Shown piece after piece: positions 23,624 through 63,146 of a DNA stretch of 64,000 nt. The translations under genes and the position numbers were made by a program. How positions within the stretch are numbered: the stretch's first letter is position 1; every line of letters starts with the position of its first letter. The stretch comes from Bradyrhizobium sp. PSBB068 (GTDB lineage Bacteria > Pseudomonadota > Alphaproteobacteria > Rhizobiales > Xanthobacteraceae), in assembly GCA_016839165.1 (NCBI GenBank), contig CP069300.1, positions 4,402,001 through 4,466,000 on the forward strand, written 5' to 3'. The notes under the pieces are model-generated. The model was not told where the DNA came from. It saw only the letters and a list, made by a program, of their open reading frames with translations, and ran no database searches.

Positions 23624-24076
23624 TCAGGCCGCCTTGGCTTCCAGCTTCTGGACGTTGTCACTCGGCACGCCGATTGCGATACGGCGCGGCTTCATGGCCT
23701 CAGGGATTTCCCGGACCAGCTCGATCTTGAGCAAGCCATTGTCGAACGCGGCGCTCTTGACCTGAACATAGTCGGCCAGATTGAACTGGCGCTTGAAGTT
23801 GCGGGTCGAGATGCCGCGATAGAGAAAATCGCGCTCGGCCTTGTCCGACTTGCTGCCCTCAATGGTGACCACGTTCTGCTCGGCCGTGATCGAGATCTCG
23901 TGGGGCGCAAAACCTGCAACCGCCAGCGAAATCTGGTAGCGGTCCTCGGAGAGCCTCTCGATATTGTAGGGCGGATAATTGTCCTCGCCGGCCCGCTGGG
24001 CCATTTCCGCGAGGTCAAAAAGGCGGTCGAAGCCAACGGTCGAACGCCAAAGGGGCGAGAAGTCATAAGTGCGCAT
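23624..24076 (-). CDS. Small heat shock protein (Hsp20/alpha-crystallin)
   Basis: 150 residues, the class A rhizobial sHSP length, beginning MRTYDFSPLWRSTVGFDRLF. The alpha-crystallin domain runs from YPPYNIERLSEDRYQISLAV to the end: AGFAPHEISI, GLLKIELVREIPE (the G-x-L motif) and KPRRIAIG. It is an ATP-independent holdase chaperone forming large oligomers in the cytoplasm. SD GGAGGA (24084-24089 on the complement) is the target of the ROSE hairpin. It is the first gene of the unit ending in rpoH, comparable to hspA of B. japonicum. Confidence 0.95.
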   Translation of the reverse strand: MRTYDFSPLWRSTVGFDRLFDLAEMAQRAGEDNYPPYNIERLSEDRYQISLAVAGFAPHEISITAEQNVVTIEGSKSDKAERDFLYRGISTRNFKRQFNLADYVQVKSAAFDNGLLKIELVREIPEAMKPRRIAIGVPSDNVQKLEAKAA

Positions 24077-24185
24077 AGCCAAATCCTCCAAAGAGCAAGA
24101 TGGTTACGAGCGGCACCGGACACGACCGGTGCCCGTCTCAACGGTCCGGACCCACGAGGCTTCCGGACACCACCGTTCGGTGGCG
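24077..24185 (-). promoter_or_regulatory. ROSE-type RNA thermometer (5' UTR of hsp20)
   Basis: The about 109-nt leader folds as expected for ROSE. A 5' stem pairs AACGG/CCGTT and TCCGGA/TCCGGA (24140-24177). A second stem GGCACCGG/CCGGTGCC spans 24112-24133. A short 3' hairpin puts CUUGCU (24094-24099) against the SD GGAGGA (24084-24089). The sequence around it (CTTGCTCTTTGGAGGATTTG on the complement) closely follows the known ROSE consensus, with the conserved U-U-G-C-U opposite the SD. At low temperature the hairpin hides the SD; melting on heat shock allows translation. Confidence 0.88.
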
Positions 24186-46711: not shown

Positions 46712-47085
46712 GATAATTTCCCCGAAGCTGGGTGAATCCATCGGTGCGAAACAATGGACGCCGCCGTGCACGGCTGGTGATGCATCCCGGGCGGCGCCGA
46801 CACCAGCCCGTAGAACAATACCTCGATAACCCAAGGTAGATTGTGAAATAGACGACAACTTGCCAGGCAAAATCGGCGCGGCGCGACCGCCGTCAAACCC
46901 TTTGCGAGCGCCCATTGGCATGCCAGGGCGCGCGGCCGGCCCGCATCACCTCATCGTGTCCACCGGCTGTGGCGAGGTTCACACGCCGTGCTCGCCGACT
47001 GTGGTATTGTCGAGGCGTTGGAAAATTCCTGCCGCGCATTTCGCGGCTCTCGCATTCCGAGATCAAATGTCTTTGGAGCTGGGCG
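46712..47085. other. Intergenic region, no gene seen
   Basis: 374 bases between the PLD-like gene (minus) and a small gene (plus); it should hold both promoters. No RNA gene, repeat or convincing reading frame is seen. Confidence 0.4.
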
Positions 47086-47403: not shown

Positions 47404-47490
47404 CGGCCATCGGTTCGGTCCGATCACTGCTTCATTGTCGTCGTGCTGCAGGCGGGCGCATGCCTCGCCGCACGCGGCGACGCAAACGAA

Positions 47491-47517
47491 AATGGCCGGG
47501 GACGAGCCCCGGCCATT
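47491..47517 (-). terminator. Terminator of the peptide-binding protein gene
   Basis: AATGGCCGGGG (47491-47501) and CCCCGGCCATT (47507-47517) are perfectly complementary with a 5-base loop; on the minus strand TTTTCGTTTG follows. It is 22 bases past the stop of the binding-protein gene. Confidence 0.85.
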
Positions 47518-47538
47518 CCATTCTGAATCAAGGCGCGC

Positions 47539-49158
47539 TTACTCGGACTTGTCGATGTTCCAGAAGATCGGCGTCGCCGGGCCGTCGAGCACACCGGTCA
47601 GCGACTTCCGCCATGCGCTCGGTCCCTGATACTGGCCCAGCGGGATGTAGATGACCTGCTCGTAGGCTTCCTTCTGGATATCGGATGCGATCTTCTTCTG
47701 CTCGTCGAGCGACGGCGCGCGGACGAAGGCATCCTTCAGCTGTTCGATTTTCGGATCATCGGCCCAGCCGAACCAGCCGCCATTCTTGCCCTGGCCGCCG
47801 ATCGAGAGGTTGGCGATCGGGTTGGAGACGTCGGCGCTCACCCAGTTGGTGAAGAACATGTTCCAGCCACCGTCCTTCGGCGCCTTCTGGCTGGCGCGGC
47901 GAGTCACCACGGTCTGCCAGTCGGTCGCCTGCAGATCGACCTTGAAGCCGGCGTCGCGCAGCTGCTGGGCAACGACGACCGGCTGCGCCTTCAGCGTGGT
48001 GACGTCGCCGGGCGCCATGATGACGACCGGCGTGCCGTCGTAACCCGACTCGGCGAGTGCCTTCTTGGCCGCCGCCATGTCGCCTCCCTTCGCCAGCGTC
48101 TCGCCACCGATCTCCGACGCGAATGGCGTGTCGCAGATGAAGAACGCGACACAGGTCTTGTAATACTTGGGATTGCCGACCAGCGCGTCGAGCACCTGTT
48201 TCTGGTTGATCGCCAGCAGCGCCGCCTGGCGAACCTTGATGTTGTCGAAGGGCGGATAGAGGAAGTTCATGCGGCCAAGCGTCTGGAAGCCGAACTTGTT
48301 CAGCGTCTCGACCTTGATGTCCTTGTCGGCCTCGAGGATCGACAACGTGTCGAACGACGGGTTCTCCACGAAATCGATATCGCCGGACTGCAGCGCGTTC
48401 ATCGCCGTCTGCGCGTCGGCCATCGTGACCCACTCGACGCGGTCGACCTTGACGACCTTGCCGCCCGCGGTCCAGCTCGCCGGCTCCTTGCGCGGCACGT
48501 AGTCCTTGTTCTTGACGTAGACCGCCTTGACGCCCGGCTGGAATTCCGCCTGGACGAATTTGAAGGGGCCCGAACCGATCTGTTCCGGGATCGGCTTGTC
48601 CGGCGGCGTTTCGGCGAGCCGCTTCGGCATCATGAAGGCGACGCGCGACGACGGCTTGCCGATCGAATCCAGCACCAGGCCGTAGGGCTCCTTCAGCTTC
48701 AGCGTGATCGTCTTGGCATCGGTGGCCTCAAGGCTCGCCGTGAAGTCCATCAGCTTCTGGCCCATGCCGTCGACCTTGGCCCAGCGCTTCAGCGACGCGA
48801 CGCAGTCTTCGGCGGTCACCGGCGTGCCGTCATGCCACTTCAGGCCGTCGCGCAGCGTGAACGTGTAGGTCAGCTTGTCGTCGGAGACCTTCCAGTCCGC
48901 CATCTGCGGCTCGATCTTGAAGTTGGAGTCGGTCGCCACCAGCGTGTCGTAGACCATGTAGCCATGGTCGCGCGTGATGTAGGCCGTGGTCAGGATCGGA
49001 TCGATGACGCGCAGATCCGAATGCATTACCGCGGTGATGGTCTTGTCCGCGGCCACGGCGTGTTGCGTAAACGACAATTCCTGCGGCGCGAACGACAGCG
49101 CGACCGCCGTCAACGCAGCCGCTAGCGTGCGGCGCTTCCAACGCGAGATAGGGAACAT
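47539..49158 (-). CDS. ABC transporter substrate-binding protein, family 5 (peptide), Sec signal
   Basis: 539 residues from ATG 49158 with CAGGAGAG upstream. Sec-type signal (RRTLAAALTAVALSFAPQEL) cleaved near HAVAADKT. The mature domain is a DppA-like family-5 protein: DHGYMVYDTLVATD, LTYTFTLRDGLKWHDG, VTAEDCVASLKRW, SGPFKFVQAEFQPGVKAVYV, EAYEQVIYIPLGQY. It is a close paralogue of 9568-11178 but with a different signal type. It is divergent from the peptide catabolism genes and likely supplies DppB/DppC/DppDF encoded at 54-58 kb. Its promoter is in the 285-base divergent spacer 49159-49443. Confidence 0.93.
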   Translation of the reverse strand: MFPISRWKRRTLAAALTAVALSFAPQELSFTQHAVAADKTITAVMHSDLRVIDPILTTAYITRDHGYMVYDTLVATDSNFKIEPQMADWKVSDDKLTYTFTLRDGLKWHDGTPVTAEDCVASLKRWAKVDGMGQKLMDFTASLEATDAKTITLKLKEPYGLVLDSIGKPSSRVAFMMPKRLAETPPDKPIPEQIGSGPFKFVQAEFQPGVKAVYVKNKDYVPRKEPASWTAGGKVVKVDRVEWVTMADAQTAMNALQSGDIDFVENPSFDTLSILEADKDIKVETLNKFGFQTLGRMNFLYPPFDNIKVRQAALLAINQKQVLDALVGNPKYYKTCVAFFICDTPFASEIGGETLAKGGDMAAAKKALAESGYDGTPVVIMAPGDVTTLKAQPVVVAQQLRDAGFKVDLQATDWQTVVTRRASQKAPKDGGWNMFFTNWVSADVSNPIANLSIGGQGKNGGWFGWADDPKIEQLKDAFVRAPSLDEQKKIASDIQKEAYEQVIYIPLGQYQGPSAWRKSLTGVLDGPATPIFWNIDKSE

Positions 49159-49443
49159 GAAATCTCTCCTGACGTGTAACTGGTCAAAGCCGGCTTATTC
49201 GTTATGCATGCGGTTCGTTATTTGGCGAACTAACATGCTGTATGGCTTGTGAAATCGAGACTTGCATCAAGCGCAATGCGCGTCAATCGGTTTCGGGCGA
49301 GATCAAACGTATACGAACGAATGAACGAGAAGCCTGGTGCATTTTGACTTTACAAAATCGTCGCCTGAGCCTTTCGTGCGATAAGCATGCGCGCAGGTAC
49401 GGATATGCGTAGTCATGCAATCAAACAACTAGAGAGAAACGAC

Positions 49444-50574
49444 ATGAACCCAGCCAATCTTCCGTTTGATTCCGAAGCGATGCTGCAGGGCCTGCGCAGC
49501 TGGGTGGAATGCGAAAGCCCGACATGGGATGCGGCTGCGGTCGAACGCATGCTCGGTCTCGCCGCGCGCGAGATGGCGATCATGGGCGCGACGATCGAAC
49601 GCATCGCGGGACGCCAGGGCTTTGCCGGCTGCGTCCGCGCCCGTTTCCCCCATCCGAAGCAAGGCCAGCCCGGCATCCTGATTGCCGGCCATCTCGACAC
49701 CGTGCACCCGGTCGGCACCATCGAGAAGCTGCAATGGCGGCGCGAAGGCAACAAGTGCTTCGGGCCCGGCATCTTCGACATGAAGGGCGGCAACTATCTG
49801 TCGATCGAAGCGATCCGGCAATTGGCTCGCGCGTCCTTCACGACGCCGCTGCCGATCACGGTGCTGTTCACGCCCGATGAAGAGGTCGGCACGCCCTCGA
49901 CGCGCGACATCATCGAGGCCGAGGCCGCACGCAACAAATATGTGCTGGTGCCGGAGCCCGGCCGGCCGAACAACGGTGTCGTCACCGGCCGCTACGCGAT
50001 CGCGCGCTTCAACCTCGAAGCCACCGGCAAGCCGAGCCATGCCGGCGCGACGCTGTCCTCCGGCCGTTCCGCGATCCGGGAAATGGCCCGGCAGATCATC
50101 GCTATCGACGGCATGACCACCGAGGACTGTACCTTCTCGGTCGGCGTCGTGCATGGCGGCCAATGGGTCAATTGCGTCGCGACCACCTGCACCGGCGAAG
50201 CGCTCAGCATGGCCAAGCGCCAGGCCGATCTCGACCGCGGCGTCGAGCGCATGCTGGCGCTGTCAGGCACGGCCAACGACGTCACTTTCAAGGTGACGCG
50301 CGGCGTCACCCGCCCGGTATGGGAGCCGGATGCCGGCACCATGGCGCTGTATGAAAAGGCAAAAGGCCTCGCAGCGGCGATGGGCCTCGACCTGCCGCAT
50401 GGCAGCGCCGGCGGCGGATCGGACGGCAACTTCACCGGCGCAATGGGCATCCCGACGCTCGACGGCCTCGGCGTTCGCGGCGCCGATGCGCATACGCTCA
50501 ACGAACACATTGAGGTCGACAGCCTTGCCGAGCGCGGCCGCCTGATGGCGGCACTGCTGGCGACGCTCGACTGA
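49444..50574 (+). CDS. M20 family metallopeptidase (carboxypeptidase G2-like)
   Basis: 376 residues from ATG 49444. Metal-binding motifs of the M20 clan are intact: ILIAGHLDTVHP (HxD), FGPGIFDMKGGNY (bridging Asp), FTPDEEVGTPS (catalytic Glu-Glu), PEPGRPNNG and, at the end, DAHTLNEHIE. The dimerisation domain is in the middle (ARFNLEATGKPSHAGATLSS). The enzyme type hydrolyses a C-terminal amino acid or N-acyl bond using two zinc ions in the cytoplasm. It opens the plus-strand catabolic series; the glycine riboswitch lies just downstream, before the next gene. Confidence 0.92.
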   Translation: MNPANLPFDSEAMLQGLRSWVECESPTWDAAAVERMLGLAAREMAIMGATIERIAGRQGFAGCVRARFPHPKQGQPGILIAGHLDTVHPVGTIEKLQWRREGNKCFGPGIFDMKGGNYLSIEAIRQLARASFTTPLPITVLFTPDEEVGTPSTRDIIEAEAARNKYVLVPEPGRPNNGVVTGRYAIARFNLEATGKPSHAGATLSSGRSAIREMARQIIAIDGMTTEDCTFSVGVVHGGQWVNCVATTCTGEALSMAKRQADLDRGVERMLALSGTANDVTFKVTRGVTRPVWEPDAGTMALYEKAKGLAAAMGLDLPHGSAGGGSDGNFTGAMGIPTLDGLGVRGADAHTLNEHIEVDSLAERGRLMAALLATLD

Positions 50575-50670
50575 CGTCGATTGCACTGCACAACACGTTG
50601 GCACTGCCAGATCGAAATTTAGCCTTGTCCATTTTTGAGGCTTCGCCTACGGTCCGGCCGTCCAACTCGA

Positions 50671-50897
50671 CGATGCGGGAGAGATCGAAGCGACAACATT
50701 CGTGTTGTCAGCTTCGGCGCCGACGGAGCAACCGCCCCGGAAACTCTCAGGCAAAAGGACTGTATCGTCAGGACGATCTGGAGAGAGACGGACACGACCG
50801 CACATCAAGGGCCGTGACGTCCACCGAAGGGGATAGTTCGCGATCGGGCACAGGTCCGATGCGGATCAAGCTCTCAGGTACCGTGACAGATGGGGCG
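50671..50897 (+). promoter_or_regulatory. Tandem glycine riboswitch
   Basis: Two consecutive glycine aptamers. The first (about 50671-50760) has GGGAGAGAUC, the core GCCGACGGAGCAACCGCCCC and closing AAACTCTCAGGCAAAAGGAC. The second (about 50777-50897) has CTGGAGAGAGAC, CCACCGAAGGGGA and CTCTCAGGTACCGTGACAGA with GGGG. The two aptamers follow each other with a short linker, as in natural gcvT-type riboswitches. The controlled gene 63 bases downstream is a D-amino-acid-dehydrogenase-like flavoprotein. Glycine binding is expected to switch on expression, typically of glycine catabolism. Confidence 0.93.
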
Positions 50898-50959
50898 CTG
50901 AAACAGCCGGTTGCACCGGCGGTTCGGCGACTCTAATCCACGGGAGCCTGAAGACCACC

Positions 50960-52267
50960 ATGCCACACATTGCGATCATCGGCGCCGGCATCACCGGCGT
51001 GACGACGGCCTATGCCCTGCTCGAGCGCGGCTACCGGGTGACTGTCCTCGACAGGCATCGCTACGCCGCGATGGAGACCTCGTTCGCCAACGGCGGACAG
51101 CTTTCCGCCAGCAATGCCGAAGTCTGGAACAGCGCCGCGACCATTCTCAAGGGGCTGCGCTGGATGCTGCGAAGCGACGCTCCGCTGTTGATGAATCCGA
51201 AGCCGAGCTGGCACAAATATTCCTGGATCGGCGAATTCGTCGGCAGCATCACCCGTTATCGCGCCAACACCATCGAGACCACACGGCTCGCAATCGAAGC
51301 GCGCAAGTATCTGTTCTCAATCGCGCAGCGCGAGAACATCGCCTTCGATCTCGAGCGCCGCGGCATCCTGCACGTCTATCACGACAAGGCCGGCTTCGAC
51401 GCGGGCCTGCGCGTCAACACGCTGCTGCAACAAGGCGGCCTCGACCGACGTCCGGTGACGGCGGACGAAATCCGCACCCTCGAACCCGCGCTGCAGACGA
51501 GCTGCTATGGCGGCTTCTTTACGCCGTCGGATGCGACCGGCGATATCCACAAGTTCACGCGCGGTCTCGCCGAGGCCTGCATCCGTCGCGGCGCGAGCTT
51601 TGTCCATGAAGCCGATGTCGACACCATCGCGCGCGGCGATGACGGTTTCCGCATCGGCTGGAACGACGTCGCTTCGCATGACGCCGAGGTCGCGCAACGG
51701 CACGAGCTGCAGGCCGACGGCATCGTCATCTGCGCCGGCGTGGCAAGCCGCCACTTCGCAAGCCTGCTCAACGACCGCGTCAACGTCTATCCGGTGAAGG
51801 GCTACTCGATCACGGTGCAGCTCGATGCGCCGCAAAGCCGCGACGCTGCGCCGACCGTCAGCCTGCTCGATGAAGCGGCAAAAATCGTCACCAGCCGGCT
51901 CGGCGCCGACCGCTTCCGCGTCGCCGGCACCGCCGAGTTCAACGGCTTCAACCGCGATATCCGCGCCGACCGCATCCAGCCGCTGGTGGATTGGGTGCGG
52001 CATCATTTTCCGGGGATCGATACATCGAAGGTCGTGCCGTGGGCGGGCCTGCGCCCGATGATGCCGAACATGATGCCGGTGGTGCGCTCGGGACGGATTC
52101 CTGGCGTGTTCTACAACACCGGCCACGGTCATCTCGGCTGGACACTCTCGGCCGCGACGGCACAGATGATCGCGGGTGCGATCGATGACTGGCGCGACCT
52201 CGACACGCCTTCAATGGTGCCATCGCAGGCCGATGCGATCGAGCCTGCCCGCGCAGCTTTCCCCTAA
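50960..52267 (+). CDS. dadA: D-amino-acid dehydrogenase/glycine oxidase-like flavoprotein
   Basis: 435 residues from ATG 50960. The N-terminal FAD motif is IAIIGAGITGVTTAYALLERGY, followed by ETSFANGGQLSASNAEVW (DadA-type flavin loop), a substrate domain, and the C-terminal GVFYNTGHGHLGWTLSAATA. This matches DadA, which oxidises D-amino acids to 2-oxo acids and ammonia, passing electrons to the respiratory chain. A glycine riboswitch just upstream argues that it acts on glycine or on a related D-amino acid. Located between two M20 genes in the peptide-use series. Confidence 0.88.
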   Translation: MPHIAIIGAGITGVTTAYALLERGYRVTVLDRHRYAAMETSFANGGQLSASNAEVWNSAATILKGLRWMLRSDAPLLMNPKPSWHKYSWIGEFVGSITRYRANTIETTRLAIEARKYLFSIAQRENIAFDLERRGILHVYHDKAGFDAGLRVNTLLQQGGLDRRPVTADEIRTLEPALQTSCYGGFFTPSDATGDIHKFTRGLAEACIRRGASFVHEADVDTIARGDDGFRIGWNDVASHDAEVAQRHELQADGIVICAGVASRHFASLLNDRVNVYPVKGYSITVQLDAPQSRDAAPTVSLLDEAAKIVTSRLGADRFRVAGTAEFNGFNRDIRADRIQPLVDWVRHHFPGIDTSKVVPWAGLRPMMPNMMPVVRSGRIPGVFYNTGHGHLGWTLSAATAQMIAGAIDDWRDLDTPSMVPSQADAIEPARAAFP

Positions 52268-52575
52268 TCATCCGACCGGAGAGGAAGAATATGTGCGTAT
52301 TTGCGTGTGTCCAAGTCGGGATTCGCTGGGAATCGCCGCGTGACAACGATTAGCGTCGTAATGGGGAAAAGCGCTTCAGCGCGGGAGGGGACAATGCGCA
52401 TTGGGGTCACGGGCACGCATGGCATTGCGGCCCGGAGCGGCATTCCGGCCGGCACGCGTGTCGTTGGCAATCGCTTCGGCGGACCGATACGCAATCTCGC
52501 CATCGGCACGCGCATCGGTTGCGCGCGCCATCTTTCCGAAACGCTCATTGCTCAAGGCTCCACGAAAGGCGCGAC
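52268..52575. other. Intergenic region with two short RBS-led frames
   Basis: 308 bases. A 20-codon frame (ATG 52291, MCVFACVQVGIRWESPRDND) has GAGAGGAAG upstream. A 61-codon frame (ATG 52394, GGGAGGGG upstream) ends in a TGA overlapping the next ATG at 52576 as ATGA. Neither resembles a known protein; the second might couple translation of the next gene. No riboswitch recognised here. Confidence 0.3.
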
Positions 52576-53874
52576 ATGACAACCGGGACGTTGACCAAGG
52601 CGGATCAGATTGCCGCCGAGTTGTGCGCGGCCGTCGATCGAAACTTCGACGATCAGATCGCGTTCCTGTCGCGCATGGTGCAATTCCGCAGCCTGCGTGG
52701 ACAGGAGGCGCCACAGCAACATTGGCTGGCCGAGCAATTCGCCAAGCGCCGCTACGACGTCGATGCATTCAGCCTTGCGGACGTCAACCTGATGAGCCAT
52801 CCGAAAGCAGCACCGATGGACGGCATCGATCTTGCCGGATCGCAGCAGGTCGTTGCGACGCTCAACAGCAAGGGCAGCGGGCGCAGCCTGATCCTGCAAG
52901 GTCATATCGACGTGGTGCCTGAAGGGCCTGCTGACCTTTGGGACCAGCCGCCGTTCTCGGGCGCCGTGCAGGACGGCTGGATGTTCGGGCGTGGCGCGCA
53001 AGACATGAAGGCCGGCGTCTCGGCAATGATCTTCGCGCTCGATGCGATCCGCGACGCCGGCTATGTTCCGGGCGGACGCATCCATCTGCAGACCGTGACC
53101 GAGGAAGAGAGCACCGGCAACGGCGCATTGTCGACGTTGATCCGCGGCTATCGCGCCGACGCCTGCCTCATTCCCGAACCAACCGGACACACGCTGACGC
53201 GTGCCCAGGTCGGCGCCGTCTGGTTCCGCCTGCGCGTCCGCGGCACGCCGGTGCATGTCGCCTATTCGGAAACCGGGACAAGCGCCATCCTGTCGGCGAT
53301 GCATCTGGTGCGCGCGTTTCAGGATTACACCAAGGCGCTCAATGCCCGGGCGCTCGACAACAGCTGGTTCCGCAGCGTCAAGAACCCGATCAAGTTCAAC
53401 GTCGGGATCATCAAGGGCGGCGATTGGGCCAGTTCGACCGCGGCCTGGTGCGAACTGGATTGCCGTCTCGGCCTGCTGCCGGGCGAAACGCCGCAGCAGG
53501 CGATGCAGGGCATCGAGGAGTGCCTGGCCGACGCGCACAAGGCCGACGAGTTCCTGTCCGGCAATCCGGCTGAACTGGTGTGGAGCGGCTTTCAGGCCGA
53601 CGCAGCGGTCTGCGAGCCCGGCAGCGAAGCGGAAGCAGCCCTGTCGGCTGCCCATCATTGCGTCTTCCAGGCTCCGATGCAGGAGCGCCTGTCGACGGCC
53701 GTCAACGACACCCGCTACTATTGTGTCGATTACGGCATCCCTGCACTTTGCTATGGTCCTTACGGTGTCGGCCCACATGCGTTCAACGAACGTGTCGAGC
53801 TCGACAGCCTTCGCAAGACAACGCAGAGCATCGCACTGTTCGCCGCCAACTGGTGCGGCGTGATGAGAGCGTGA
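52576..53874 (+). CDS. ArgE/DapE family deacylase (M20 metallohydrolase)
   Basis: 432 residues from ATG 52576. M20 motifs: SLILQGHIDVVPEGPADLWD (HxD), FGRGAQDMKAGVSAM (bridging Asp), LQTVTEEESTGNGAL (Glu-Glu), CLIPEPTG, and PHAFNERVELDSL at the end. The N-terminal helical part and length fit the subfamily annotated as N-formylglutamate/acetylornithine deacetylase-like deacylases. It removes an acyl group or splits an amide of an amino-acid derivative. It lies in the same direction after the DadA-like gene, so it may free the amino acid DadA then oxidises (inference). Confidence 0.9.
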   Translation: MTTGTLTKADQIAAELCAAVDRNFDDQIAFLSRMVQFRSLRGQEAPQQHWLAEQFAKRRYDVDAFSLADVNLMSHPKAAPMDGIDLAGSQQVVATLNSKGSGRSLILQGHIDVVPEGPADLWDQPPFSGAVQDGWMFGRGAQDMKAGVSAMIFALDAIRDAGYVPGGRIHLQTVTEEESTGNGALSTLIRGYRADACLIPEPTGHTLTRAQVGAVWFRLRVRGTPVHVAYSETGTSAILSAMHLVRAFQDYTKALNARALDNSWFRSVKNPIKFNVGIIKGGDWASSTAAWCELDCRLGLLPGETPQQAMQGIEECLADAHKADEFLSGNPAELVWSGFQADAAVCEPGSEAEAALSAAHHCVFQAPMQERLSTAVNDTRYYCVDYGIPALCYGPYGVGPHAFNERVELDSLRKTTQSIALFAANWCGVMRA

Positions 53875-54078
53875 ATGAACGTGTCGCTTCAGCTCGGTGG
53901 CACACGACGACAAGTGCAATTCGAAATAGCAGCATCAGACCAGGGAAGGCCGCCAACGGCACGACCCTCGCCTTGATATAACGTCGCCATTGGCACAGTA
54001 TTTGCCTGCAAATTCATCACGTTCGCGCTGGCTTTGACACAAGACGCAGAAGCGCATGAGACACATCACGGGGACACC

Positions 54079-54132
54079 ATGAGTATGATGCGGCCCAGCC
54101 TTCGCTTCACACCATCTGACGGCAGGAGATAG
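54079..54132 (+). other. Short open frame before the permease operon
   Basis: ATG 54079, ACGGGG 5 bases upstream, codes for 17 residues (MSMMRPSLRFTPSDGRR) and ends 5 bases before dppB. It may be a leader peptide or nothing. Confidence 0.2.
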
Positions 54133-54137
54133 CAGCG

Positions 54138-55079
54138 ATGATCGGATATCTGCTTCGCCGCATCCTCGCTGCCATTCCCGTGATGGGCGTGGTGGCCCTG
54201 TTCGTGTTCCTGTTGCTGCGGCTGACGCCGGGCGACCCCGCCGCAATCCTCGCCGGCGACAATGCGACGCCGGAACAGCTCGAGCGCATCCGTACCTCGC
54301 TTGGTCTGAACGAGCCGATCTACATCCAGTTCTACACCTGGGTCGCGAAGCTCCTGCACGGCGACCTCGGCGTCTCCCTGATCTCGAACAAGCCGATCCT
54401 CGAGATGATCGGCCCGCGCCTCGAGCCGTCGATCTCGGTCGCGCTCGCCACCATCGTCCTCTCGATCCTGGTCGCGGTGCCGCTCGGCGTCATCGCGGCG
54501 TGGAAGCACGGCACCTGGATCGACCGCTGCGTGATGGGGCTGTCGGTGCTCGGCTTCTCGGTGCCGGTGTTCGTGATCGGCTATGTGCTGATCCAGGTGT
54601 TCGCGATCGATCTGCGCTGGGTGCCGGTGCAGGGCTTCAAGAGCATCTCGGCCGGCTTCGGTCCGTTCTTCGAGCGCATCATCCTGCCGACCTGCACCCT
54701 CTCCTTCATCTATGTGGCACTGATCGCGCGCATGACCCGGGCCTCGATGCTCGATGTGCTGGGTGAAGATTACGTCCGCACCGCGCGCGCCAAGGGCATC
54801 GGCGAGACCGGCGTGCTGCTGCGCCACGCACTGCGCAACGCCGCGGTGCCGGTGATCACCGTGATCGGCTCCGGCTTCGCACTGCTGATCTCCGGCGTCG
54901 TCGTCACCGAAAGCGTGTTCAACCTGCCCGGCATCGGCCGCCTCACCGTCGATGCGGTGCTGGCGCGCGACTATCCGGTGATCCAGGCCATGATCCTTCT
55001 GACGTCGGGCATCTATGTCGGCGTCAATCTGTTGATCGACGTGGCGTACACCCTGCTCGATCCTCGTATCCGGTACTGA
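54138..55079 (+). CDS. ABC transporter permease (DppB family)
   Basis: 313 residues with six membrane helices, starting MIGYLLRRILAAIPVMGVVA, the classical DppB/OppB N-terminus. The EAA loop is visible as ARMTRASMLDVLGEDYVRTA and RAKGIGETGVLLRHALRNAA. It forms the channel with the DppC protein 3 bases downstream. AGGAG is 9 bases upstream of the ATG. With 55083 and 56109 it makes a full dipeptide/peptide-type importer whose binding protein is probably 47539-49158 or 9568-11178. Confidence 0.93.
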   Translation: MIGYLLRRILAAIPVMGVVALFVFLLLRLTPGDPAAILAGDNATPEQLERIRTSLGLNEPIYIQFYTWVAKLLHGDLGVSLISNKPILEMIGPRLEPSISVALATIVLSILVAVPLGVIAAWKHGTWIDRCVMGLSVLGFSVPVFVIGYVLIQVFAIDLRWVPVQGFKSISAGFGPFFERIILPTCTLSFIYVALIARMTRASMLDVLGEDYVRTARAKGIGETGVLLRHALRNAAVPVITVIGSGFALLISGVVVTESVFNLPGIGRLTVDAVLARDYPVIQAMILLTSGIYVGVNLLIDVAYTLLDPRIRY

Positions 55080-55082
55080 GCA

Positions 55083-55970
55083 ATGGCGATCGAAACCCTT
55101 CCCGAAGCCTCTCTCCCCGTCACCCGGCCGTTCCGCGTCAAGTTCGGCTTCCTGACCTCGACGCCGATCATCGCGGTCGCAACGATCTGTCTCGTCCTCA
55201 TCATCCTGATGGCGATCTTCGCGCCGCTCCTTGCGCCTCGTGATCCACTCTTGCTGACGCCGTCGCTGCGGCTGAAGCCGTCGAGCGCGCAATATTTGCT
55301 CGGCACCGACGCCTATGGACGCGACCTGTTGTCGCGCATCATCTACGGCGCGCGGATCTCGCTGGTAATCGGGCTCGGCGCCGCCGTCTGCTCGATCGCC
55401 ATCGGGCTCCTGATCGGCCTCGTCGCCGGCTTCTTCCGCTGGGTCGATGCGGTGATGATGCGCGTGATGGACGGCTTGATGGCGATCCCGGCCATTCTGC
55501 TCGCAATCGCCGTGGTCTCGCTGTCTGGCGCCAGCATCTGGACCGTGATGGTCGCGATCACCATCCCCGAGATCCCGCGCGTAGCACGCCTGGTGCGCTC
55601 GGTGGTGCTGACCGCGCGCGAGGAGCCCTATGTCGAGGCCGCGATCTCGCTCGGCTCGAGCCTGCCGAAGATCATGTGGCGGCATTTGATGCCGAACACG
55701 ATCGCGCCGCTGATCGTGCAAGGCACTTATGTCTGCGCGTCCGCGATCCTGACCGAGGCGATCCTGTCGTTCCTCGGCGCCGGCATCTCGCCGGAGACGC
55801 CGACCTGGGGCAACATCATGGCCGAGGGCCGCGCGTTCTTCCAGGTCAAGCCGTCGCTGATCTTCTGGCCGGGACTTCTGCTCTCGATCGCCATTCTCAG
55901 CATCAACCTGATCGGCGACGCCGCGCGCGATGCGCTCGATCCCCGCATGAAGCAGCGTGAGGGCAAGTGA
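55083..55970 (+). CDS. ABC transporter permease (DppC family)
   Basis: 295 residues from ATG 55083, 3 bases after dppB. Features of DppC/OppC: LGTDAYGRDLLSRIIYGARI, six helices, and the EAA loop in VVLTAREEPYVEAAISLGSS and LPKIMWRHLMPNTIAPLIVQ. Ends at RDALDPRMKQR. It pairs with DppB. The gene is followed by a repeat element (55993-56067) in the gap before the ATPase gene. Confidence 0.93.
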   Translation: MAIETLPEASLPVTRPFRVKFGFLTSTPIIAVATICLVLIILMAIFAPLLAPRDPLLLTPSLRLKPSSAQYLLGTDAYGRDLLSRIIYGARISLVIGLGAAVCSIAIGLLIGLVAGFFRWVDAVMMRVMDGLMAIPAILLAIAVVSLSGASIWTVMVAITIPEIPRVARLVRSVVLTAREEPYVEAAISLGSSLPKIMWRHLMPNTIAPLIVQGTYVCASAILTEAILSFLGAGISPETPTWGNIMAEGRAFFQVKPSLIFWPGLLLSIAILSINLIGDAARDALDPRMKQREGK

Positions 55971-55992
55971 CGGCTTCGATGCAATCGAAGCC

Positions 55993-56067
55993 GTCATCCC
56001 GGGGCGCGCAGCGAACCCGGGATCTCGAGATTCCGGGTCTGGTCCTGGCGCACCATCCCGGAATGAC
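55993..56067. repeat. Intergenic palindromic repeat, family A copy 2
   Basis: Starts GTCATCCCGGGGCGCGCAGCG and ends CATCCCGGAATGAC; the ends are imperfect inverted copies with an inner CCCGGGATCTCGAGATTCCGGG palindrome. It sits within the 138-base gap between the permease and ATPase genes of one operon, so the hairpin is transcribed in the mRNA. Confidence 0.75.
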
Positions 56068-56108
56068 AGTGGGTAAATTCCTTCGCAGCCGCGCCAAGAG
56101 AGCCTGAC

Positions 56109-57758
56109 ATGACCAACGTCGTCCTCGACATCAACAACCTCGTCGTCGGCCTCGGCCGCAAGGCGGACGCGCATCGCATCATCGACGACCTCTCCCTCCA
56201 GGTGCATGAGGGCGAGACGCTGTGCCTGGTCGGCGAAAGCGGCTCGGGCAAGTCGGTGACCTCGCTAACCACGATGGGCCTGTTGCAGAAGGGCACGCTG
56301 GTGCCGTCGGGCGGCAGCGTCAAGCTGGTCGGCGAGGAGCTGCTCACTGCCACTGACCGCCGGCTGCGCCAGCTGCGCGCCACGCGAATGGCGATGATCT
56401 TCCAGGAGCCGATGACCGCGCTCAATCCGGTGGTCCCGGTCGGCCGCCAGATCGACGAGGTGCTGCGCGCCCATACCGATCTCGACTCCCGCGCGCGGCG
56501 CCAGAAGATCCTGGCGATGATGGAGCATGTGCGGCTGCCGGACGTGCAGCGCATCTTCTCTTCCTACCCGCACCGCCTCTCCGGCGGACAGCGCCAGCGC
56601 ATCATGATCGCGATGGCTCTGGTGCTGGAGCCGAAGCTCCTGATCGCGGACGAGCCGACCACGGCGCTCGACGTCACCACCCAGAAGCAGATCCTCGCCC
56701 TGATCCGTGATCTGCAACGCGATCACGGCACCGCCGTCCTCTTCATCACCCACGACATGGGCGTGGTGGCCGAGATCGCCGACCGCGTCGCGGTGATGCG
56801 GCACGGCCGGCTGGTCGAAACCGGCCCGCTGCAGGATGTGCTGCGCAATCCGAAGATGGAGTACACCCGCAACCTGCTGTCCTCGGTCCCCAGCCTCGTG
56901 CCGCGCGCGCCGCGCCCGGAGACGAAAGAGCCGGTGGTGCTGGAAGCCAACGAGCTCAGCAAGGTCTACCGGGAGCGGTCGCTGTACGGCAAAGCCCGCG
57001 AGGTCGCCGCCGCCAGCAACGTCACGCTCACCTTGCGCAAGGGCCGCACGCTCGGCATCGTCGGCGAAAGCGGCTCCGGCAAATCGACGGTGGCGCGCTG
57101 CATCGTCCGGCTGATCGATCCGACCTCGGGCGGGGTGCGCCTCGCCGGCCGCGAGATCTCCGATTTGTCGCGCCGGCTGTTGCAGCCGCATCGCCAGAAG
57201 ATCCAGATCATCTTCCAGGACCCCTACCGCTCGCTCAATCCGCGCGTCACGGTCGGCGAGAGCATCGCGGAGGGCCCGATCAATTACGGCATGCCGCGCA
57301 AGGACGCGCTGGCGCGGGCCCGCGAGTTGCTCGAGCTGGTGCATTTGCCGCCCGACGCGATCTCGCGCTATCCGCACCAGTTCTCCGGCGGCCAGCGTCA
57401 GCGCATCGCGATCGCGCGCGCGCTGGCGCTCGATCCCGACGTGCTGGTGGCGGACGAGGCGGTATCCGCGCTCGACGTCTCGGTGCAGGCGCAGGTTCTG
57501 CAGCTGCTTGACGAAATCCAGCGGCGGCTCGGCATCGCGCTGCTGTTCATCACGCATGATTTGCGCGTCGCCGCCCAGATCTGCGACGACGTCGCCGTGA
57601 TGCAGCGTGGACGGGTCGTGGAACAGGGACCGGCGGCGGAGGTGCTGACCAATCCGCAGCAGGCCTATACCCGCGCACTGCTCGAGGCGGCGCCCGGGCG
57701 CGGCTGGGACTTCGCCAACTTCCGCCCCGTTTCGGAAGGCATTGTGGCGACGGCCTAG
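56109..57758 (+). CDS. Fused DppD-DppF ABC transporter ATPase
   Basis: 549 residues with two complete ABC domains. The first has Walker [13 protein letters not shown] (about residue 43), signature [16 protein letters not shown], Walker [13 protein letters not shown]. The second, from about residue 280, has Walker [15 protein letters not shown], signature [17 protein letters not shown] and Walker [13 protein letters not shown]. Each half also has the C-terminal oligopeptide-transporter domain. Usual hosts encode DppD and DppF separately; here they are one chain, as in GsiA. It powers the DppB/DppC channel. Confidence 0.95.
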
Positions 57759-57974
57759 GTCTTTAGCCTCAAGCCTTTACGCCCACAGGGCATGCAAATC
57801 CGGTGGTGCTCCCCGGCTTGCGCTTGGCGCGACGACACGCTTAACGTCGCCCGCCAGAGCGCGATCCGGAGAGGCGAACCGGCCTTCGAAGATCATGCTG
57901 ATATTGAAAAGGCGAGATGATGCGATTGCTTCCAAATCGCATCACAAGCGAAGAAACGTGTCGAGACCTACTTG

Positions 57975-59495
57975 ATGACCCGTATTGCCGTTGGCGGCTT
58001 CCTGCACGAGACCAACACCTTCGCACCGACGAAGGCAACTTACGACGACTTCGTGCATGGCGGCGGCTGGCCGTCGATGACGCGCGGCGCCGAGGTGCTC
58101 AAGGTCATGCGCAAGATCAATGCCGGCCTTGCCGGTTTTGTCGAGGCGGCGGAAGCCAATGGTTGGGAGCTGGTGCCGACGATCGCGACCGGGGCGACCC
58201 CGTCGGCACATGTGACGAAGGACGCCTTCGAGCGGATCGTCAAGGACATGGTCGACGGCATCGCCGCGGCCGGGCCGATCGATGGCGTCTATCTCGACCT
58301 GCACGGCGCCATGGTGACCGAGCATTATGACGACGGCGAAGGCGAAATCCTCGCCCGCGTGCGCAAGGCGATCGGCAAGGACATTCCGCTGGTAGCGAGC
58401 CTCGATCTGCATGCGAACGTCTCACCCGAGATGATCGAACATGCCGACGCGCTGATCGCCTACCGCACCTATCCGCATGTCGACATGGCCGACACCGGCC
58501 GCGCCTGCGCGAGGCATCTGGCCTTGCTGCTCAAATCCAGACAACGTCTCGCAAAAGCGTTCCGGCAGCTGCCGTTCCTGATCGCGATCAGTTGGCAATG
58601 CACCAACGACCAGCCGGCCAAGGGCATCTATCAGAAACTTGCGGCGCTGGAGAGCGACGCGGTTCCGACGCTGTCGTTTGCGTTCGGCTTCCCGGCCGCC
58701 GATATCAGGGACTGCGGCCCGAGCGTATTCGCCTATGGCCGGACCCAGGCCGACGCCGACGCTGCCGCCGACAGCATCGCCGCGCTGGTCGAACGCCACG
58801 AGAACGATTTCGACGGCCCGATCCATACGCCCGACGAGGGCGTGCTGCTTGCGATGAAGCTCGCGGCGACGGCGTCGAAGCCGATCGTGATCGCCGACAC
58901 CCAGGACAATCCCGGTGCCGGCGGCAATTCCGACACCACGGGCATGCTGCGTGCGCTGGTACGCAACGGAGCAAGCGCGGCCACCGGCGTGATCTGCGAC
59001 CCGCAATCCGCGCGCGCTGCGCACGCGGCCGGCGTCGGTGCGACCGTCACGCTCGATCTCGGCGGCAAGTCCGGCATTCCCGGTGATGCGCCCTACAGGG
59101 AAACGTTCGTCGTCGAGCAGCTCTCGGACGGCCGGTTCGTCGCGCCGGGACCATTTTACGGCGGCCGCGATATGGATATGGGACCCTCGGCCTGCCTGCG
59201 GATCGGCGACGTCCGCGTCGTCGTCGGCTCCTACAAGGCGCAGCTCGCGGACCAGGCGATGTACCGCTATGTCGGCATCGAGCCGACCGCGCAGAAGATC
59301 CTGGTCAACAAGAGCTCGGTGCATTTCCGCGCCGATTTCGAGCCGATTGCCGAGAAACTGCTGATCTGCGCCGCGCCCGGGCCGATGCCCGCCGATCCCG
59401 CCACGCTGCCGTGGAAACATTTGCGGCCGGGCATTCGTATCAAGCCCAACGGCCCGACTTTCACCCCCTCCTCCCCATCACGCACAGACGGATAG
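57975..59495 (+). CDS. M81 family metallopeptidase (MlrC-like)
   Basis: 506 residues from ATG 57975. N-terminal DUF1485 domain with IAVGGFLHETNTFAP and VYLDLHGAMVTEHYDDGEGE (the metal-binding D-x-H-G-A), LVASLDLHANVSP and AYRTYPHVDMADTG. The C-terminal MlrC domain begins near residue 300 (DTQDNPGAGGNSDTTGML). MlrC in Sphingomonas ends the degradation of linearised microcystin; relatives in other bacteria have unknown peptide substrates. It is 216 bases after the ATPase gene, on the same strand. Confidence 0.92.
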   Translation: MTRIAVGGFLHETNTFAPTKATYDDFVHGGGWPSMTRGAEVLKVMRKINAGLAGFVEAAEANGWELVPTIATGATPSAHVTKDAFERIVKDMVDGIAAAGPIDGVYLDLHGAMVTEHYDDGEGEILARVRKAIGKDIPLVASLDLHANVSPEMIEHADALIAYRTYPHVDMADTGRACARHLALLLKSRQRLAKAFRQLPFLIAISWQCTNDQPAKGIYQKLAALESDAVPTLSFAFGFPAADIRDCGPSVFAYGRTQADADAAADSIAALVERHENDFDGPIHTPDEGVLLAMKLAATASKPIVIADTQDNPGAGGNSDTTGMLRALVRNGASAATGVICDPQSARAAHAAGVGATVTLDLGGKSGIPGDAPYRETFVVEQLSDGRFVAPGPFYGGRDMDMGPSACLRIGDVRVVVGSYKAQLADQAMYRYVGIEPTAQKILVNKSSVHFRADFEPIAEKLLICAAPGPMPADPATLPWKHLRPGIRIKPNGPTFTPSSPSRTDG

Positions 59496-59500
59496 AGACC

Positions 59501-60673
59501 ATGCCGACCATCGAGCGCATCGACAGTTTTGCCGACGAACTCACCGCCATCAGACGGGATCTGCATGCGCATCCCGAAATCGGCTTCGAGGAGGTGCGGA
59601 CATCGGGCATCGTGGCCGAGAAGCTGACGAGCTGGGGCATCGAGGTGCATCGCGGCCTCGGCGGCACCGGCGTGGTCGGCGTGCTCAAGGGCAAGGGCAG
59701 CGGCACCAGGAAGATCGGCCTGCGCGCCGACATGGACGCGCTGCCGATGGAGGAGAACACCAATCTGAAATGGCGTTCGACCATTCCCGGCCGGTTCCAC
59801 GGCTGCGGCCATGACGGCCACACCACGATGCTGCTCGGCTCGGCGCGCTATCTCGCCGAGACCCGCAATTTCGACGGCACCGTGCACTTCATCTTCCAGC
59901 CGGCCGAGGAAGGCCTCGGCGGCGCCCGCGCCATGATCAAGGACGGCCTGTTCAAGCAATTCCCCTGCGACGAGGTCTACGGCCTGCACAACGCCCCCGA
60001 CCTCAACCATGGCGAGATCGCGATCCTGCCGGGCCCGGCGATGGCCGCGGCCGACTTCTTCGACATCAGGATCCAGGGCTATGGCGCACATGGCGCGATG
60101 CCGGAACGCTCCAAGGACGCGGTCGTGATCGCAATGACGCTCGGACAGGCGCTGCAGTCCATCGTCAGCCGCAACGTCGATCCGCTGCAGGCAGCGGTGC
60201 TGTCGATCACCCAGATCCATTCCGGTTCGGCCTACAACGTTATTCCAGGCGATGCCTGGATGTGCGGCACGGTGCGCTGCTTCTCCGAGGAGATCCGCGC
60301 GCTGATCCGCACGCGCATGCGCGAGATCTGCGCCGGCTTTGCCGCCGCATATGGCGCCGAAATCTCGGTCGAGGTCCGCGACGGTTTCAGCGTGCTGGTC
60401 AATCAGGAAGAGCAGTCCCGCGTTGTCGAGGAAGTCGCGCGCACCGTGGTTGATCCGGCCAAGGTGATCACGCGCTCGACGCCCAAGATGGGCAGCGAGG
60501 ATTTCGCCGACATGATGCAGGCCGTTCCCGGCGCGTATTTCTGGGTCGGCCATGACGGTTCAGTGCCCGTGCACAATCCCGGTTACGTTCTCGACGACAA
60601 GATCCTGCCGATCGGCGCCAGCATGTTCGCCCGCATCATCGAGAAACGTATGCCGGCAGGTGCGCATGCATAG
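59501..60673 (+). CDS. M20 amidohydrolase (hippurate hydrolase-like)
   Basis: 390 residues from ATG 59501. Motifs of the HipO/IAA-amino-acid hydrolase subfamily: GLRADMDALPMEE, FHGCGHDGHTTMLLG (Cys/His metal site), FIFQPAEEGLGGARAM (Glu), VYGLHNAP, and the dimerisation region FFDIRIQGYGAHGAMPERSK. It splits an N-acyl amino acid such as benzoylglycine. The ATG is 6 bases after the MlrC stop, and its own stop overlaps the next gene by 8 bases, so it is cotranscribed with both. Confidence 0.92.
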   Translation: MPTIERIDSFADELTAIRRDLHAHPEIGFEEVRTSGIVAEKLTSWGIEVHRGLGGTGVVGVLKGKGSGTRKIGLRADMDALPMEENTNLKWRSTIPGRFHGCGHDGHTTMLLGSARYLAETRNFDGTVHFIFQPAEEGLGGARAMIKDGLFKQFPCDEVYGLHNAPDLNHGEIAILPGPAMAAADFFDIRIQGYGAHGAMPERSKDAVVIAMTLGQALQSIVSRNVDPLQAAVLSITQIHSGSAYNVIPGDAWMCGTVRCFSEEIRALIRTRMREICAGFAAAYGAEISVEVRDGFSVLVNQEEQSRVVEEVARTVVDPAKVITRSTPKMGSEDFADMMQAVPGAYFWVGHDGSVPVHNPGYVLDDKILPIGASMFARIIEKRMPAGAHA

Positions 60674-62084
60674 GCCGAAAGCGGACGCCATCACGTCGCT
60701 GCACGATCTCTCGGCCGTCGACCTGCTCGCCGGCTATCGTGCCAAGCAGTTCTCGCCGTCCGAGGTGCTCGAGGAAATCATCTCCCAGGTCGCGACCTGG
60801 GAGCCGCACATCAAGGCGCTGTATCTGTACGACCCCGACGGGGCGCGGAAGGTCGCCAAGGCCGCGACCGAGCGCTGGCAGCAGGCCGAGCCGGCCGGCA
60901 CGCTCGACGGCGTGCCCGTCACCATTAAGGACAATGTCGCGACCAAGGGCCAGCCGGTGCCGCTCGGCAGCGCCAGTGTCAAGCTCGCGCCGGCGGAGAA
61001 GGATGCGCCGCCTGCCGCGCGGCTGCGCGAAGCCGGCTGCGTGATCTTCTCCAAGACCACGATGCCGGACTACGGCATGCTGTCGTCGGGACTGTCGTCG
61101 TTCCATCCCCTCACCCGCAATCCCTGGGATGTCAGCAAAAACCCCGGCGGCTCGAGCTCCGGCGCGGGCGCCGCCGGTGCTGCCGGTTACGGCCCGCTGC
61201 ATCTCGGCACCGATATCGGCGGCTCGGTGCGGCTGCCGGCCTCCTGGTGCGGCCTCGTCGCGCTGAAGCCGAGCCTCGGCCGCGTGCCGATCGACCCGCC
61301 CTATGTCGGCCGCGTCGCGGGGCCGATGACCCGCACCGTCGACGACGCCGCGCTGATGATGAGCGTGCTGTCGCGCCCGGATCGCCGCGACGGCATGAGC
61401 CTGCCGGCGCTTGAGGTGAACTGGAAGGCGCTGGAGAAATCGCCGCGCAAGCTGCGTATCGGGCTGATGCTCGATGCCGGCTCCGGCCAGAAGGTCGAGA
61501 AGGACGTTCGCGAAATCGCCGTCAAGGCGGCGAAGGCGTTCGAATCCGCCGGCGCCGTCATCACCGAGATCGACGGCATCCTGACGCCCGAGATGCTCGA
61601 AGGGCTCGACAATTTCTGGCGCGCGCGGACCTGGGACGAGCTGTCGAAATTGTCTGAGGCCGATCGCGGCAAGACGCTGCCCTATATCCTCAACTGGGCC
61701 GAGGCCGGCGCAAAACTCTCTGGCGTCGACGTGGTGCGCGGATTCAACCAGACGATGGCGATCCGCGCAGCCGCCGCAAAATTGTTCTGCGAGGTCGACT
61801 ACGTGATCTCGCCGGTGTCGCCGGTGGTGAACTTCCCGGCGGAATTCGCATCACCGCTCAACGATCCGGCAAAGCCGTTCGAGCACATCTGCTTTACCGT
61901 GCCGTGGAATATGTCGGAGAATCCTGCGTTGTCGATCAACGGCGGCTATGACAAGAAGGGCTTTCCGATCGGCGTCCAGATCATCGGCCGCCGCTTCGAC
62001 GATATCGGGGTGCTCGGCATGGGCAAGGCGTTCGAAGGCCTGCGTGGCCCGCAGAAGCCGTGGCCGACGCCGCCGAAGAAGTAG
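60666..62084 (+). CDS. Amidase (amidase-signature family)
   Basis: 472 residues from ATG 60666, overlapping the previous stop. The Ser-cisSer-Lys triad of the amidase signature family is visible: Lys in VPVTIKDNVATKGQPVPLGS, the cis-Ser in SKNPGGSSSGAGAAGAAG, and the nucleophile in GTDIGGSVRLPASWCG. It hydrolyses a linear amide to acid and ammonia. With two M20 enzymes and MlrC it completes an amide-cleaving set. A repeat element follows the stop. Confidence 0.93.
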   Translation: MHRPKADAITSLHDLSAVDLLAGYRAKQFSPSEVLEEIISQVATWEPHIKALYLYDPDGARKVAKAATERWQQAEPAGTLDGVPVTIKDNVATKGQPVPLGSASVKLAPAEKDAPPAARLREAGCVIFSKTTMPDYGMLSSGLSSFHPLTRNPWDVSKNPGGSSSGAGAAGAAGYGPLHLGTDIGGSVRLPASWCGLVALKPSLGRVPIDPPYVGRVAGPMTRTVDDAALMMSVLSRPDRRDGMSLPALEVNWKALEKSPRKLRIGLMLDAGSGQKVEKDVREIAVKAAKAFESAGAVITEIDGILTPEMLEGLDNFWRARTWDELSKLSEADRGKTLPYILNWAEAGAKLSGVDVVRGFNQTMAIRAAAAKLFCEVDYVISPVSPVVNFPAEFASPLNDPAKPFEHICFTVPWNMSENPALSINGGYDKKGFPIGVQIIGRRFDDIGVLGMGKAFEGLRGPQKPWPTPPKK

Positions 62085-62255: not shown

Positions 62256-63146
62256 ATGGCGTATGAGACGATCAAGTACGAGGTCGCCGAGCAGATCCTG
62301 ACCATCACGCTGAACCGGCCCGACAAGCTCAACGCCTTCAACGCCACGATGCAGCAGGAGCTGATCGACGCGTTTGACAAGGCCGACAAGGACGACGACG
62401 TCAGGGCGATCATCGTGACCGGCGAAGGCCGCGGCTTCTGCGCCGGCGCCGACCTCTCCTCCGGCGCGAACACATTCGACCGCGATGCGCGGCGCGGTCC
62501 GGTCAAGCGCAATGCCGACGGCAGCGTCGACTACAGCGATCCGCAGGTGCGCGACGGCGGCGGCCAGGTGACGCTGCGCATCTTCAAATGTCTGAAGCCG
62601 GTGATCGCCGCGGTGAATGGTCCCGCGGTCGGCATCGGCGTCACCATGCAGCTCGCGATGGATATCCGCATCGCCTCCGAGGCCGCGCGCTTCGGCTTCG
62701 TGTTCTCCCAGCGCGGCATCGTGCCGGAAGCCGCCTCGAGCTGGTTCCTGCCGCGCATCGTCGGCATCTCGCAGGCGCTGGAATGGTGCTATTCGGGCCG
62801 CGTCTTCCCGGCGCAGGAAGCGCTCGCCGGCCGGCTGGTCAGCAAGGTGGTGCCGCCGGAGGACCTGTTGCCGACCGCGCGTGCGCTCGCCAAGGAGTTC
62901 GCGGCCAAGACCGCGCCGGTGTCGGTGGCGCTGATCCGCCAGATGATGTGGCGCATGCTGGGCGCCGACGATCCGATGGAGGCGCACAAGGTCGACAGCC
63001 GCGGCATCTATGCCCGCGGCCGCTCCGAGGACGTCAAGGAAGGCGTGGTGTCGTTCCTGGAGAAGCGTCCCGCGCAGTTCAAGAACAAGGTCTCGTCCGA
63101 CATGCCCGACTATTTCCCATGGTGGCAAGAGCGCGACTATAAGTGA
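62256..63146 (+). CDS. Enoyl-CoA hydratase/isomerase family protein
   Basis: 296 residues from ATG 62256. Crotonase fold: ITLNRPDKLNAFNATMQQEL, IVTGEGRGFCAGADLSSG (oxyanion Gly-Ala-Asp), VIAAVNGPAVGIGVTMQLAM and the catalytic-Glu region RGIVPEAASSWFLPRIVG. Acts on a 2-enoyl-CoA, adding water; the substrate chain is unknown. Length is a little above the 260 typical because of an insert near ARRGPVKRNADGS. Its stop shares GTGA with the next gene start. Confidence 0.93.
   Translation: MAYETIKYEVAEQILTITLNRPDKLNAFNATMQQELIDAFDKADKDDDVRAIIVTGEGRGFCAGADLSSGANTFDRDARRGPVKRNADGSVDYSDPQVRDGGGQVTLRIFKCLKPVIAAVNGPAVGIGVTMQLAMDIRIASEAARFGFVFSQRGIVPEAASSWFLPRIVGISQALEWCYSGRVFPAQEALAGRLVSKVVPPEDLLPTARALAKEFAAKTAPVSVALIRQMMWRMLGADDPMEAHKVDSRGIYARGRSEDVKEGVVSFLEKRPAQFKNKVSSDMPDYFPWWQERDYK

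Follow-up and report, generated by a model that had tools for sequence, protein, structure and literature searches.

A tandem glycine riboswitch and its NF009074 flavoenzyme form a conserved pair beside a separable uptake and hydrolase cluster in Bradyrhizobium

Among the described systems closest to the element treated here is the gcvT tandem glycine riboswitch (RF00504), in which two aptamers joined by a short linker precede gcvTHP and control glycine disposal. The window analysed, a 64,000-nucleotide stretch of Bradyrhizobium sp. PSBB068 (positions 4402001-4466000 of contig C1, genome G000, 7.67 Mb; coordinates are in window numbering unless C1 or another locus is named), holds a tandem glycine riboswitch of the same two-aptamer, short-linker build, and control of glycine disposal is proposed for it as well. 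Unlike the gcvT element, it stands before a single gene, encoding a flavin adenine dinucleotide (FAD)-dependent amino acid oxidase/dehydrogenase (hereafter the flavoenzyme). The genome has four aptamer matches in total, the pair in the window and a second tandem riboswitch (C1 4606109-4606289) directly before gcvT (L001 1733-2881), the latter absent from the first-pass annotation of this DNA. A non-gcvT target of glycine riboswitches in alphaproteobacteria is the malate synthase gene glcB (Kazanov 2007, PMC2211319, in the part of that article consulted), which differs in encoding another enzyme and in being known mostly from Candidatus Pelagibacter fragments, whereas the pair described here occurs in several families of alpha- and betaproteobacteria and in one metagenome-assembled genome (MAG) of a gammaproteobacterium.

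The flavoenzyme is a member of NF009074 (PRK12409, 'D-amino acid dehydrogenase'; 721 bits against a cut-off of 494), a name in which the D-amino acid activity is annotation only. Like ThiO glycine oxidase it has the DAO fold with the carboxylate-binding arginine retained, and its predicted structure (predicted local distance difference test, pLDDT, 91.2) has glycine oxidases as the closest solved folds; the fold is also common to proline dehydrogenase, sarcosine oxidases and D-arginine dehydrogenase. Unlike ThiO, it falls under the TIGR02352 cut-off (131 bits against 250.8) and adjoins hydrolase genes rather than thiamine genes. DadA (NF001933) is its closest sequence family after NF009074, but the flavoenzyme lies under that cut-off too (326.1 bits against 383), differs in a loop (G45, N52, V55) and carries a riboswitch that DadA-type genes mostly lack. 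The neighbouring cluster resembles Opp/Dpp importers with N-acyl amino acid hydrolases in its family-5 solute-binding protein (SBP5), two permeases and two ATP-binding cassette (ABC) domains, the make-up of a peptide/opine/nickel-type ABC importer, and in M20 hydrolases whose relatives include carboxypeptidase G2 and N-acyl-glutamine aminoacylase; it differs in having a fused ATPase and a sigma-54-type promoter site.

Riboswitch class, fold and importer all belong to known kinds. As far as the literature searched shows, two things are new, namely the near-constant pairing of the riboswitch with NF009074 and the probable, separate control of the cluster from a sigma-54-type site. The pairing was not found named in that literature, which did not extend to supplementary gene lists; twelve glycine-metabolism genes under a glycine riboswitch are itemised in the supplement of PMC3766115, according to the part of that article consulted, and the pairing may already be among them.

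We give a probability of roughly 0.6 to the reading that the flavoenzyme disposes of glycine on induction by glycine, and that its unit sits inside an uptake cluster under separate control. The unit would be old and self-contained, consisting of a promoter, two aptamers, one expression platform and one enzyme, and the enzyme would oxidatively deaminate glycine to glyoxylate and ammonia, with the respiratory chain or oxygen as electron acceptor. Glycine would thereby have a second way out in addition to the glycine cleavage system, the gcvT gene of which has its own tandem riboswitch here. In this lineage the unit would sit within a genus-wide cluster that takes up and hydrolyses peptides or N-acyl amino acids and has its own sigma-54-type site. 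We infer from sequence that the riboswitch binds glycine, that it switches ON and that glycine is the substrate, and likewise the compounds that the cluster imports.

Conservation of the riboswitch-flavoenzyme pair

Riboswitch and flavoenzyme form a conserved pair that is independent of the surrounding cluster. Both aptamers exceed the RF00504 gathering score of 32 (Table 1; the second reaches 46.6 bits in the genome scan), they adjoin each other 5' of one gene, and 68 nt separate the second match from the ATG at 50960. Core positions of aptamer 1 are unchanged across 22 aligned relatives. The first-pass annotation had placed a tandem glycine riboswitch in front of a DadA-like gene, and the RF00504 matches on the + strand directly upstream bear this out. 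The data support the assignment of the riboswitch to that gene, glycine as the signal being the plain reading of RF00504. Directly 5' of aptamer 1 lies a promoter-like TTGTCC-N17-TACGGT that is alike in sequence and spacing in the compared Bradyrhizobium loci (the slice is short in several, and the Tardiphaga locus L038 deviates). It appears weak by the sigma-70 consensus, since a generic promoter consensus scan did not pick it up.

Among the best 80 of 581 flavoenzyme relatives (94 to 62% identity, the nearest named ones from Bradyrhizobium), tandem aptamer signatures lie directly 5' of the gene in 77 loci. They include loci from Bradyrhizobium, Methylobacterium, Mesorhizobium, Shinella, Aminobacter, Burkholderia, Paraburkholderia, Achromobacter and Ralstonia, besides one from a Granulosicoccus MAG, a gammaproteobacterium. 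Of the remaining three, L052 has one signature, confirmed by Rfam, in a locus that begins only 246 bases upstream of the gene, while L078 and L084 have no glycine riboswitch upstream, by signature or Rfam. The genes and upstream sequences of these last two are near-identical although their MAGs are labelled Amaricoccus and Bauldia, so that one label is probably wrong; purU (TIGR00655, above cut-off) precedes the flavoenzyme gene in L078, and L084 has the same upstream sequence.

Because a nearest-hit set is biased, the NF009074 model was also searched in 142 class-level and 200 phylum-level genomes (the sets overlap). Matches above the cut-off score at least 648 bits, and the other matches listed score 206-342, except L124 at 465. 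By Rfam, RF00504 lies upstream of 13/13 genes above the cut-off, the window gene included, and of 1 of 45 other related loci, which include two paralogues from the window genome. A tree was computed without 20 Bradyrhizobium loci (L011-L033 except L012, L022 and L033), L115 (identical to the window) and L152 (its frame ends early); in it all NF009074 rows together with L124 form one branch (support 93) of 82 rows, 78 of them with a riboswitch. The one riboswitch among the 45 other loci, in L165 (2833-2943, - strand), belongs to a DadA-type gene that is not an NF009074 member (318 bits), and as L165 falls outside the NF009074 branch this riboswitch was probably acquired separately.

Within 195 Bradyrhizobium genomes the flavoenzyme occurs in 71, in 84 copies, and aptamer number follows copy number. 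Four or more aptamers are present in 70 of the 71 carriers versus 3 of 124 non-carriers, as counted with stricter filters that lose weak aptamers (three incomplete genomes yielded none). The 59 single-copy genomes have four aptamers in 55 cases, six in two, seven in one and two in one, and 11 of the 12 genomes with two or three copies have six to nine. The exception among these is G152, where a stand-alone copy (L202) lacks a riboswitch and another copy (L203) has one. The flavoenzyme-less genomes with four aptamers are G012, G095 and G173, and the one G173 site looked at is gcvT.

Candidate substrate of the flavoenzyme

That riboswitch and flavoenzyme stay together while their neighbours change suggests that the enzyme handles glycine. 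In the 47 loci that lack the cluster, neighbours were grouped at 35% identity from simply called reading frames of at least 120 residues. Eight groups recur in at least five loci (10 for the largest), and their Pfam representatives (one each) are an ABC ATPase, a beta-lactamase fold, a TctC receptor, an octopine-dehydrogenase fold, an M24 peptidase with creatinase N-domain, an amidohydrolase, a GntR regulator and an aldehyde dehydrogenase, among which no shared pathway was found. In five rhizobial loci, L040 (6921-9686) and, at the corresponding position, L042, L049, L054 and L059, the genes for the M24 peptidase (prolidase/creatinase superfamily) and the amidohydrolase stand 5' of the riboswitch unit; among solved structures the M24 protein is closest to proline dipeptidases, and it matches no NCBIfam model at E 1e-30.

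The alternative that survives best, which we nonetheless consider unlikely, is that glycine serves as the signal only. The enzyme would then oxidise another small amino acid (D-alanine, sarcosine, D-serine or an N-substituted glycine) from which glycine arises or alongside which it appears, as might happen when peptides or the cell wall are degraded. However, the riboswitch is the constant partner across otherwise differing neighbourhoods, the eight recurrent groups as represented contain neither a racemase nor an N-methyl amino acid oxidase, and the 45 other DadA-related genes go without riboswitch apart from L165. Moreover, an ON switch driven by the enzyme's own product would be unusual.

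The neighbouring cluster and its sigma-54-type site

The first-pass annotation had read the whole locus as one pathway, in which hydrolases of the cluster release glycine that turns on the oxidase. The flavoenzyme does lie inside the SBP5/M20a/dppBC-DF/MlrC/M20c/amidase cluster in 33 of the 80 loci (32 Bradyrhizobium, one Tardiphaga; truncated contigs included), but it lies outside in the other 47, four of them from Bradyrhizobium and some on short contigs. The cluster in turn occurs without the flavoenzyme in many Bradyrhizobium genomes. M20a (NF005678) is present in 191/195 versus 71/195 for the flavoenzyme, and empty sites were found: in 20 flavoenzyme-less genomes fetched, M20a is followed directly by dppB and the remaining cluster in 16 and by MlrC, with no dpp between, in 4. 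In loci L181, L185, L187 and L189 dpp genes are missing from the interval that separates M20 and MlrC, and upstream there is a more distant SBP5/DppB pair. Four genomes (G015, G017, G146, G152) carry a cluster that lacks the flavoenzyme and have the enzyme gene at another site. Of the 80 loci, only two (L005, L035) have the NF005306 M20 gene in the position that it occupies in the window, 3' of the flavoenzyme gene and 5' of dppB. Since flavoenzyme and cluster occur apart and the promoter site before dppB is separate, the single glycine-centred pathway is weakened and we hold it to be quite improbable; the patterns suggest instead that the hydrolase/ABC cluster is a different unit, separately controlled.

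Sigma-54-type promoters share a GG-N10-GC core within the consensus TGGCACG-N4-TTGCW and often, not always, serve nitrogen control. When at least 10 of 12 positions of this consensus were required and letter-shuffled sequence was the control, a -24/-12 site was found in the gap before dppB in 55 of 60 loci versus 1.0% of shuffled regions, beginning 85-150 bases 5' of dppB in 53 of the 55. All 12 positions match in 14 loci, every one an empty site without flavoenzyme. The five loci without a site are L038 and the four named above, which lack the usual dppB. The window site is the sole exact match of a stricter, degenerate pattern in 64 kb (0.16 expected; 15/100 shuffles matched too), and under the 10-of-12 rule 15 sites pass across the window versus a shuffle mean of 5.2, several within one repeat near 35.8 kb, so that the window site alone is weak and its conservation bears the claim. 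Passing sites are present 5' of SBP5 as well, in 24 of 56 loci and for the most part as one repeated sequence about 240 bases upstream that is not in the window, and none was found by this rule before M20a, the flavoenzyme or MlrC. Because the site before dppB is conserved, transcription of the transporter-hydrolase run is probably driven by a sigma-54-type promoter of its own; the first-pass annotation did not list this site.

Gene families were assigned by Pfam and NCBIfam and RNA elements by Rfam (Table 1), and every family in the earlier inventory was recovered. Of the accompanying proposal that these genes import and hydrolyse small peptides or conjugates, the part that stands is that the families fit; that they make up one glycine-centred pathway is not supported. 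The MlrC-like protein is not a member of Microcystinase MlrC NF041767 (159.5 bits against a cut-off of 999). The enoyl-CoA hydratase gene lies 3' of the amidase gene in most cluster loci and in 20/20 of the flavoenzyme-less loci fetched. A SorX small RNA-like match at the 3' end of the SBP5 gene (47488-47559, - strand; 23.8 bits, below the cut-off of 46.6) is probably due to chance. Elsewhere the window holds a ROSE heat-shock RNA thermometer (24070-24166, - strand; 71 bits, Rfam) and a 713-residue reading frame with a PLD-like domain (44780-46921, - strand).

Table 1. Features of the riboswitch-flavoenzyme locus, in window numbering
Feature	Coordinates	Strand	Basis and remarks
Family-5 solute-binding protein (SBP5), divergent	47539-49158	-	Pfam, NCBIfam; neighbouring cluster
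M20 hydrolase NF005678 (M20a), carboxypeptidase G2-like	49387-50574	+	Pfam, NCBIfam; neighbouring cluster, outside riboswitch unit
Promoter-like TTGTCC-N17-TACGGT, putative promoter of riboswitch-flavoenzyme unit	50625-50653	+	Similar in Bradyrhizobium loci
Glycine riboswitch aptamer 1	50666-50772	+	RF00504, 62.2 bits, model 1-94
Glycine riboswitch aptamer 2, long insert	50776-50891	+	RF00504, 40.0 bits, model 9-86
Expression platform (predicted)	50879-50959	+	Duplex and swap tests, accessibility calculation, overlap count
FAD-dependent amino acid oxidase/dehydrogenase NF009074 (DadA-like), proposed glycine-oxidising	50960-52267	+	721 bits
M20 ArgE/DapE-type hydrolase NF005306, sporadic extra gene	52519-53874	+	657 bits
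Sigma-54 (-24/-12) promoter-like site TGGCACAGTATTTGCC before dppB	53991-54006	+	Pattern scan, conserved across loci
DppB-type permease	54138-55079	+	Pfam, NCBIfam
DppC-type permease	55083-55970	+	Pfam, NCBIfam
Fused DppD/DppF ATPase	56109-57758	+	Two ABC_tran and two oligo_HPY stretches (Pfam)
M81/MlrC-like metallohydrolase	57972-59495	+	PF07364, PF07171
M20 amidohydrolase (M20c; aminoacylase/IAA-amino acid hydrolase type)	59411-60673	+	TIGR01891, 385 bits
Amidase NF005450	60552-62084	+	797 bits
Enoyl-CoA hydratase NF006109, 3' of amidase	62256-63146	+	

Switch direction and meaning of the pairing

Glycine riboswitch platforms in Pseudomonadota are mostly translational, according to the part of PMC12452182 consulted. 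In the window the strand after the aptamer-2 motif CUCUCAGG, made up of CCGUG (50881-50885), the P1' sequence CAGAU (50887-50891) and GGGG, can pair with the ribosome-binding region CCACGGGAG (50938-50946). This strand and the region before the start codon co-vary between clades, with CCGUG facing CACGG in the window, CCGAGACA facing UGUCUCGG in L041 and CCGGGAC facing GUCCCGG in L044. Duplexes were computed for 48 of 79 leaders (low identity) and for 25 of the 79 (hand-picked as less related, not one per genus), a choice that thins kinship among leaders and does not fully remove it. Across the 48 leaders native duplexes average -15.8 kcal/mol versus -13.3 kcal/mol when swapped, with 0/5000 permutations as low; the 25 leaders, with a shorter strand, give -10.3 versus -8.7 kcal/mol (0/5000 permutations), and a control stretch (-52 to -33) in the same 25 gives 2285/5000. 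The helix overlaps aptamer 2 P1' in 21 of the 25 and covers at least two ribosome-binding bases in 15, in a count whose simple pattern picked the wrong CAGA in L039 and L051. When the strand is blocked to mimic a formed P1, the ribosome-binding region becomes more accessible by calculation: the mean over the 48 leaders goes from 0.30 to 0.41 (0.31 when another stretch is blocked) and the value for the window leader from 0.34 to 0.54, with 25 of the 48 rising by more than 0.1.

The co-variation of the strand after aptamer 2 with the ribosome-binding region favours a translational ON switch. At low glycine the strand would pair with the ribosome-binding region and translation would be low; with glycine bound, P1 of aptamer 2 would form and take up the strand, the ribosome-binding region would be freed and the enzyme would be made. 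Repression by glycine, the behaviour expected of genes that take up or form glycine, is the least probable of the alternatives. In its favour, the aptamers alone do not reveal direction and the computed accessibility drops in 7 of the 48 leaders; against it, the helix that covers P1' and the ribosome-binding region co-varies in distant clades, in keeping with ON.

At this locus the gene neighbourhood alone would mislead, because the neighbours appear to be a different, separately controlled unit. A riboswitch tells which signal its gene answers, and its near-constant pairing with the 'D-amino acid dehydrogenase' family provides a cheap and sharp hypothesis on the substrate. We lean slightly towards regarding NF009074 as mis-named, its members being dedicated riboswitch-gated glycine-oxidising enzymes that would form a translationally induced, glyoxylate-forming second outlet, encoded as a one-gene unit in varied genomic surroundings in many alpha- and betaproteobacteria and in at least one gammaproteobacterial lineage. 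If true, rhizobia, Burkholderia relatives and others would possess a second route of glycine disposal.

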